From Acidobacteriota bacterium (lineage in GTDB: Bacteria; Acidobacteriota; UBA890; WLXD01): a stretch of 64,000 nt of DNA. The translations under genes were made by a program, and so were the position numbers. Position 1 is the first letter of the stretch. The number at the start of each line of letters is the position of its first letter. Positions 3,420 to 4,476 of this stretch are shown here, piece by piece. The stretch is from assembly GCA_012103255.1 (NCBI GenBank), contig WLXD01000002.1, positions 620,001 to 684,000 of the forward strand, read 5' to 3'. The notes under the pieces were generated by a model. That model was not told the origin of the DNA. It saw only the letters and a list, made by a program, of their open reading frames with translations, and did not search any database.

Positions 3420-3507
3420 CCTGTCGGCCCGCTGACGTCCGTTCGCCGAGGCCCGAGGCGCGATCGACTAAGCTGACTCCACCACCTGCCACTCGGAGGA
3501 GTCCACG

Positions 3508-4476
3508 ATGCCCCGCTCACGCCTCGCGCTCGCAGCCTGCGTTGCAATCATTCCCAGCACGGCTGCCGCGCAGGAACAGCCAGAAGGCTTCAACCAACTG
3601 CTTGCGCGCGGCACCATTGCCTCAGTGGATGCCCCGACGTATGTCGCGGCAGCGGACGCTGAGCTCCCTGATGACGCGTGGGTACTTGGCGCCGTGATCG
3701 AGGGGCAAGCCCTGGCCTACAGTGTCAATCTGCTCAACGCCCATGAGGTGGTCAACGACAAGATCGGCGATACGGCTTTCGCCGCCGTCTGGTGACCACT
3801 TGCCAATGCGGCTGTCGTGTACAGCCGGGACTACGACGGGTTGGAGCTCAACTTCGAGGCCTCCGGCGGCCTGGTGAATAGCTCGCTCGTGATGCAGGAC
3901 AAGGAGACGGATACGTACTGGTCGATCATGAAGGGCAGCGCGACCGCTGGTCAGCTCAGTGGCACGTCGCTCGTCGAGCTTCCCGTCAGCGAGAAGACGA
4001 GCTGGGCGGAGTGGCGCGCGAAGCATCCGACAACGAGAGTCCTTTCGGTGGATGGCGCCGAGTATCGCGACGATGGCTACGAGAGCTACTGGGCCTCGGA
4101 CGAAGGCTTCCGCGGACAGATGGCCGACGACGAGCGCCTCGACACGAAGGCGCCGATCTTCGCGTTCACTCACGGCAACAGCCGTTTCGCGGTGGCGCAC
4201 GCGGCAATCGAAGGCGGCCACGTAGTCGAACTCCCGGACGGCGCTCGGCTGTTTCTGCACCGACCCGCAGGGTCCGCGATGTTCCGATCCACCGTCGCGT
4301 TCGTCTCTCGCGCCGGCTTCATCGAGGATGGTGGCGCCTGGGTCGAACTCGAATCGGGCGCACGCTTCGCGGCCAACGAAGGCAAGTTTGCCGGTGACGT
4401 CGAGCAGCTCCAGGGCTTCGACACGTTCTGGTACAACTGGTCGCTGAACAATCCGGACACCGAGGTGTTGCGCTAA
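3508..4476 (+). CDS. DUF3179-family secreted protein read through an in-frame TGA: predicted selenoprotein
   Basis: The ORF starts at ATG 3508, seven bases after a strong GGAGGA site (3495-3500), and has a signal peptide ending near residue 21. Family landmarks run unbroken across codon 96 (TGA): LNAHEVVND before it, and PLANAAVVYSRDYDG, SSLVMQDKETDTYWS and TSWAEWRAKHPTTRVLS after it. DUF3179 proteins have a near-invariant Cys (motif like TYCPLC) exactly where the TGA stands, while the motif's second Cys is Ala here. Read with selenocysteine the protein is 322 residues, within the usual family length, and the mature part has no Cys. A SECIS-like hairpin follows the TGA. The alternative is a TGC/TGT to TGA nonsense mutation or base-call error. 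The molecular function of DUF3179 is unknown to me. Confidence 0.8.
3793..3795 (+). other. candidate selenocysteine codon (UGA)
   Basis: This TGA is in frame with both halves of the DUF3179 gene (codon 96 from the ATG at 3508). It sits after GDTAFAAVW and before PLANAAVVY, the position of the conserved family cysteine. A single base change would give TGC or TGT. Confidence 0.75.
3809..3827 (+). promoter_or_regulatory. candidate bacterial SECIS hairpin
   Basis: CGGCTGT (3809-3815) and ACAGCCG (3821-3827) form a perfect 7-bp stem closing a 5-base loop CGTGT. The stem begins 13 bases after the TGA, and the loop begins 20 bases after it. The bacterial SECIS model, as I remember it, requires an upper stem of at least 4 bp, a small apical loop with a G in its first two positions, and 16-37 bases between UGA and loop; all three are met. 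The loop also contains GU, the feature SelB recognises in E. coli fdhF. Confidence 0.68.

Follow-up and report, generated by a model that had tools for sequence, protein, structure and literature searches.

The DUF3179 family (PF11376) is listed among the selenoprotein families with the motif UxxC/T (PMC9312934, PMC13188914), and the DUF3179 selenoprotein is credited to Zhang and Gladyshev 2007, from the deltaproteobacterial symbiont of Olavius algarvensis (PMC13188914). A sequence-only reading of the DNA studied here had suggested that DUF3179 was possibly new as a selenoprotein family, which is not the case given its listing in both papers. In the literature that we searched, we found no description of a UxxA clade, of a tandem duplication in this family or of the scale of Sec use in the phylum.

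We analysed a DUF3179 gene (3508..4476, forward strand) carried by a 64,000-nucleotide stretch of DNA from an Acidobacteriota bacterium, hereafter the window. This gene shares with the listed UxxC/T selenoproteins its Pfam family and the position of the predicted Sec in the motif, but its own motif, like that of the whole sampled clade, is UPLA (UxxA), its clade is separate and all-Sec, and its mature protein is devoid of Cys. The source genome contains three DUF3179 genes, with the motifs YCTLCGT (all-Cys), YUVLCHT (Sec) and WUPLANA (window). The all-Cys paralog (C9:411-1307) represents the CxxC proteins, which are of the same fold family and have the same Y71, H79, D84, D131, W138 and G148; they differ from the window gene by a two-Cys motif, CTLC or CPLC, and by having no SECIS hairpin. 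The second Sec paralog (L002, C1:651866-652738) is also a Sec form of DUF3179, but its motif TYUVLCHTG places it in the UxxC group, its SECIS has another geometry (CCACACC-GGUCU-GGUGUGG) and it belongs to a separate clade on the tree. Outside the family, the OsmC-like (UxxT) and AhpC/TSA-type (UxxS) families, likened here by their listed motifs, also have a Sec lacking a Cys partner at +3.

A TGA codon at the position of the family cysteine

The gene encodes 322 residues, with the predicted Sec at residue 96, and ends with its own TAA stop. Translation of the frame revealed a sole interruption, the TGA of codon 96 (3793..3795, forward strand), and the read-through product matches Pfam DUF3179 with 184.5 bits over profile positions 3-292 of 292, for a curated cut-off of 27 bits. 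This open frame and the full-length match agree with the sequence-only reading, according to which the DUF3179 frame continued without shift through the TGA. The ribosome site that it proposed was found as well, in the form of a Shine-Dalgarno sequence, GGAGGAG (3495..3501, forward strand), upstream of the ATG at 3508. Judged by eye, the N terminus, MPRSRLALAACVAIIPSTAAA-QEQ, resembles a signal peptide covering residues 1-21 (3508..3570, forward strand), with a probable cleavage between AAA and QE, which suggests that the product is exported. The mature protein contains no Cys, as had also been claimed, and the only Cys of the product, residue 11, lies inside the signal peptide. Lipoprotein processing at this Cys11 is unlikely because too little sequence precedes it.

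When 126 distinct DUF3179 domains were aligned, we observed that the TGA of the window gene falls exactly in the column of the near-invariant Cys of the family, where the sequence-only reading had placed it. Sixty-nine of these domains bear a TGA, exactly one in each and always in this motif column, which is well beyond chance; the other stops that might have been scattered in the relatives, a finding that the earlier reading had held would count against it, were absent from the TGA-bearing ones. At +3, 32 of the 69 Sec forms have Cys, 19 have Ala, 9 have Thr and the remaining 9 carry V, S, E, K, D or I; the UPLA of the window gene confirms that Ala stands in place of the second motif Cys. Among the 48 Cys forms, the motif is CxxC in 43, CxxT in 4 and CxxA in 1. 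From this alignment and from the hairpin, the decoding machinery and the Cys-containing sister genes described below, we estimate at about 0.9 to 0.95 the probability that the window gene is a selenoprotein gene, in which UGA at codon 96 would be decoded as selenocysteine within the motif VW-U-PLA; all the sequence-based tests that we applied favour this reading. Owing to the TGA, many DUF3179 genes are presumably truncated or overlooked in annotation.

Nine of the 126 domains have neither Cys nor Sec in the motif column. In these proteins (L049, L064, L155, L156, L168-L171 and L176) the residue is replaced by H, G, D, N or S and the other conserved residues are retained; they may form a branch that lacks catalysis or acts in another way, and their existence indicates that the Cys or Sec is dispensable for some functions of the fold.

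A SECIS hairpin and the decoding machinery

Shortly after the UGA we found a SECIS hairpin with G/U at its tip, as is expected of a bacterial selenoprotein gene. It lies at 3809..3827 (forward strand) and consists of a 7-pair stem, in which positions +14 to +20 after the TGA pair with +26 to +32, and of an extra C-G tip pair between +21 and +24. The GU exposed at the tip corresponds to 3817-3818 (+22/+23), the G at +22 being invariant and the U at +23 near-invariant. Covariation was tested in the region +15 to +31 with 95 Sec sequences of UPxx type and 2000 shuffles. Pairing was observed in 629 of the 665 cells of the Sec sequences, against a mean of 493 and a maximum of 519 in the shuffles, and we counted 136 two-sided changes in the stem compared with a shuffle mean of 39 and a maximum of 59; when the partner strand was slid by 1-3 bases, at most 358 paired cells and at most 28 two-sided changes were obtained. 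The shuffles on the full set ignore relatedness, but after thinning to 35 sequences of less than 80% identity, 230 of 245 cells are still paired, with 48 two-sided changes. The tip pair itself varies in identity (C-G in 71 sequences, G-C in 11, A-U in 8). Sixty-eight of the 95 Sec sequences, but only one of the 52 Cys or other sequences, form all six core stem pairs; the full hairpin is missing from the Cys forms of Scalindua. Taken by itself, the window sequence does not fold more stably than its shuffled versions (z 0.12), so that the evidence for the hairpin rests on covariation. In the UTLC group the hairpin has a different geometry and its loop contains GGUC.

The source genome, 4.8 Mb in 9 contigs and 95% complete, contains all the genes that the sequence-only reading had named as a check, selA, selB, selC and selD: tRNA-Sec was detected with 65.9 bits and the anticodon TCA, selA with 534 bits, selB with 346 bits as two pieces of one frame, and selD with 330 bits at C2:892635-893561 (L024), with one in-frame TGA. 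This SelD is itself Sec-containing (LATSGGUAAKVG), a known kind. Across the phylum, selA exceeds the cut-off in 249 of 396 genomes and DUF3179 is present in 132 of 396, about a third. A strong selA match accompanies the TGA form of DUF3179 in 51 of 54 genomes, a count compiled by hand from the listed genome rows, and in each of the three others tRNA-Sec scores 68-71 bits; the score was only 45 in two Cys-only genomes picked for contrast. SelA would make Sec-tRNA from the selenophosphate of SelD, and SelB carrying this Sec-tRNA would recognise the hairpin, 14-32 bases past the UGA, by the G/U exposed at its tip.

Fold and possible chemistry of the exported selenol

Comparison of the two halves of DUF3179 by hhalign gave E=1e-21, and 4.8e-29 with a larger alignment; the halves are thus homologous, DUF3179 having arisen by an internal tandem duplication. 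In the window gene the N-terminal repeat spans about residues 53-180 (3664..4047, forward strand) and holds the Sec loop. The C-terminal repeat, about residues 211-322 (4138..4473, forward strand), is degenerate and lacks this loop, so that the Cys/Sec loop and the preceding His79 are found in the first repeat only. Tyr71, His79, Asp84, Asp131, Trp138 and Gly148 are nearly invariant across the Sec forms, the Cys forms and those with neither. An AlphaFold2 model of the protein is confident and mostly beta (pLDDT 95, pTM 0.89). A fold search of this model against the PDB returned zero matches at E<=0.001, with best TM-scores of about 0.1-0.2, and a PDB profile search with DUF3179 came back empty; neither the model nor the profile thus pointed to a thioredoxin fold or to another solved redox fold. 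A weak PDB sequence match, 6sqx (E 0.11), was taken as chance, and zero NCBIfam models match the protein.

Once exported by its signal peptide, the DUF3179 selenoprotein could use its selenol as the active nucleophile, at a strand end in the first of the two homologous beta repeats, with the conserved His79, Glu80 and Asp84 preceding the Sec in sequence. As the mature protein has neither a second motif Cys nor any other Cys, an external thiol or a partner protein would have to resolve the selenol, in a one-selenol mechanism that might, for example, reduce hydroperoxides or oxidised protein thiols. From general Sec chemistry, we regard this one-selenol redox chemistry as the likeliest function, at a little short of even odds. 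The main functional rival is a selenoprotein with a non-redox Sec, which would bind a metal or ligand or act as the nucleophile of a transferase or hydrolase, and which we regard as a serious though somewhat doubtful proposal. The +3 residue of the Sec forms varies widely (A, T, V, S, K, D, E, I), so that these proteins can do without a UxxC redox pair; the DUF3179 proteins with neither Cys nor Sec and the presence of His79 and Glu80 ahead of the loop also speak for it. However, most Cys forms (43/48) have kept CxxC, and across selenoprotein families Sec mostly serves redox chemistry. The UxxA form suggests that a protein with Sec can dispense with the second Cys, and this narrows down the chemistry to be expected of DUF3179, a family with no assigned function. 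Going back to redox chemistry, a conserved partner gene was found neither near the UPLA-clade genes nor near 80 relatives, and clade-specific synteny around DUF3179 genes was seen in Poribacteria and Scalindua only. In anammox bacteria (L206, L208, L213, L252) a TlpA-like thioredoxin gene is located 2.5-4.7 kb away from that of DUF3179, and in one other genome, L251, about 2.2 kb away. It was not counted as a conserved partner because of this distance, and a TlpA-like thioredoxin as redox partner is a possible but weak candidate.

Sec and Cys forms on the tree and other readings of the TGA

A tree of DUF3179 was built with the motif columns masked. The Sec and Cys labels change 9 times on it, of which at least 7 changes are forced by starred branches, compared with 51.7 for shuffled labels. 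The exchange of Cys and TGA in close relatives, which the sequence-only reading had put forward as a check, was thus seen at least 7 times and between sister genes: CPLA in Scalindua and UPLA in Anammoxibacter, CSIA in L118 and UPLA in L108, CPLC in L081 and UPLC in L079, CTLC in L149-L153 and UTLC in L142. Such recurrent switches, in particular the pair Scalindua/Anammoxibacter, offer natural pairs for probing why selenium is used. The +3 Cys is missing in 37 of 69 Sec forms versus 5 of 48 Cys forms, but these are raw counts, and on the tree a Sec-linked loss of the second Cys was not shown, the +3 residue having hardly ever differed in independent Cys/Sec pairs.

The window gene falls within a starred clade in which each of the 27-28 rows is a Sec form with UPLA; the genes sampled from this clade span at least 5 phyla. 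In a scan of named genomes, UPLA forms were found in MAGs labelled Acidobacteriota, Calditrichota, candidate division KSB1, Latescibacterota, Krumholzibacteriota, Deltaproteobacteria and Gammaproteobacteria, and also in Acanthopleuribacter pedis, which is represented by a strain genome. In most of the clade members checked, Sec is the only Cys-like residue of the domain. This clade may represent a distinct exported selenoenzyme, with a single selenol, no Cys, a duplicated beta fold without solved relative and an undescribed reaction, a proposal that we make with considerable reserve.

These relatives also bear on how the TGA is read. An open frame running from GTG 3817 to 4476 could in principle encode the second polypeptide of a two-part gene, translation stopping at the TGA and restarting at this GTG. 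However, we saw no ribosome site ahead of 3817, such an arrangement would halve the N-terminal repeat, the Cys relatives run continuously through the TGA position and the conserved bases past the TGA agree with an RNA hairpin; a two-part gene is thus very improbable. Even less credible is a pseudogene or a sequencing error arising from a chance nonsense mutation of the Cys codon: TGA is indeed only one base away from TGC or TGT, but about 28 diverged members of the clade share this TGA, the downstream part is intact without further stop and a covarying hairpin follows, so that conservation already refutes this explanation. Finally, a general code change or suppression that would turn UGA into a codon for another amino acid, for instance Trp, has nothing that we found in its favour and is equally hard to credit, since the next gene, coding for a PadR-type regulator, is terminated by TGA, which therefore also serves as an ordinary stop in this genome, since the relatives have Cys rather than Trp in the column, and since the genome has a tRNA-Sec with a TCA anticodon.

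Decoding of the window TGA as selenocysteine would make this gene one of two Sec DUF3179 genes in the genome; the other, the UxxC paralog L002, adjoins what seem to be genes for a MacB-type ABC permease and for sigma and anti-sigma factors.
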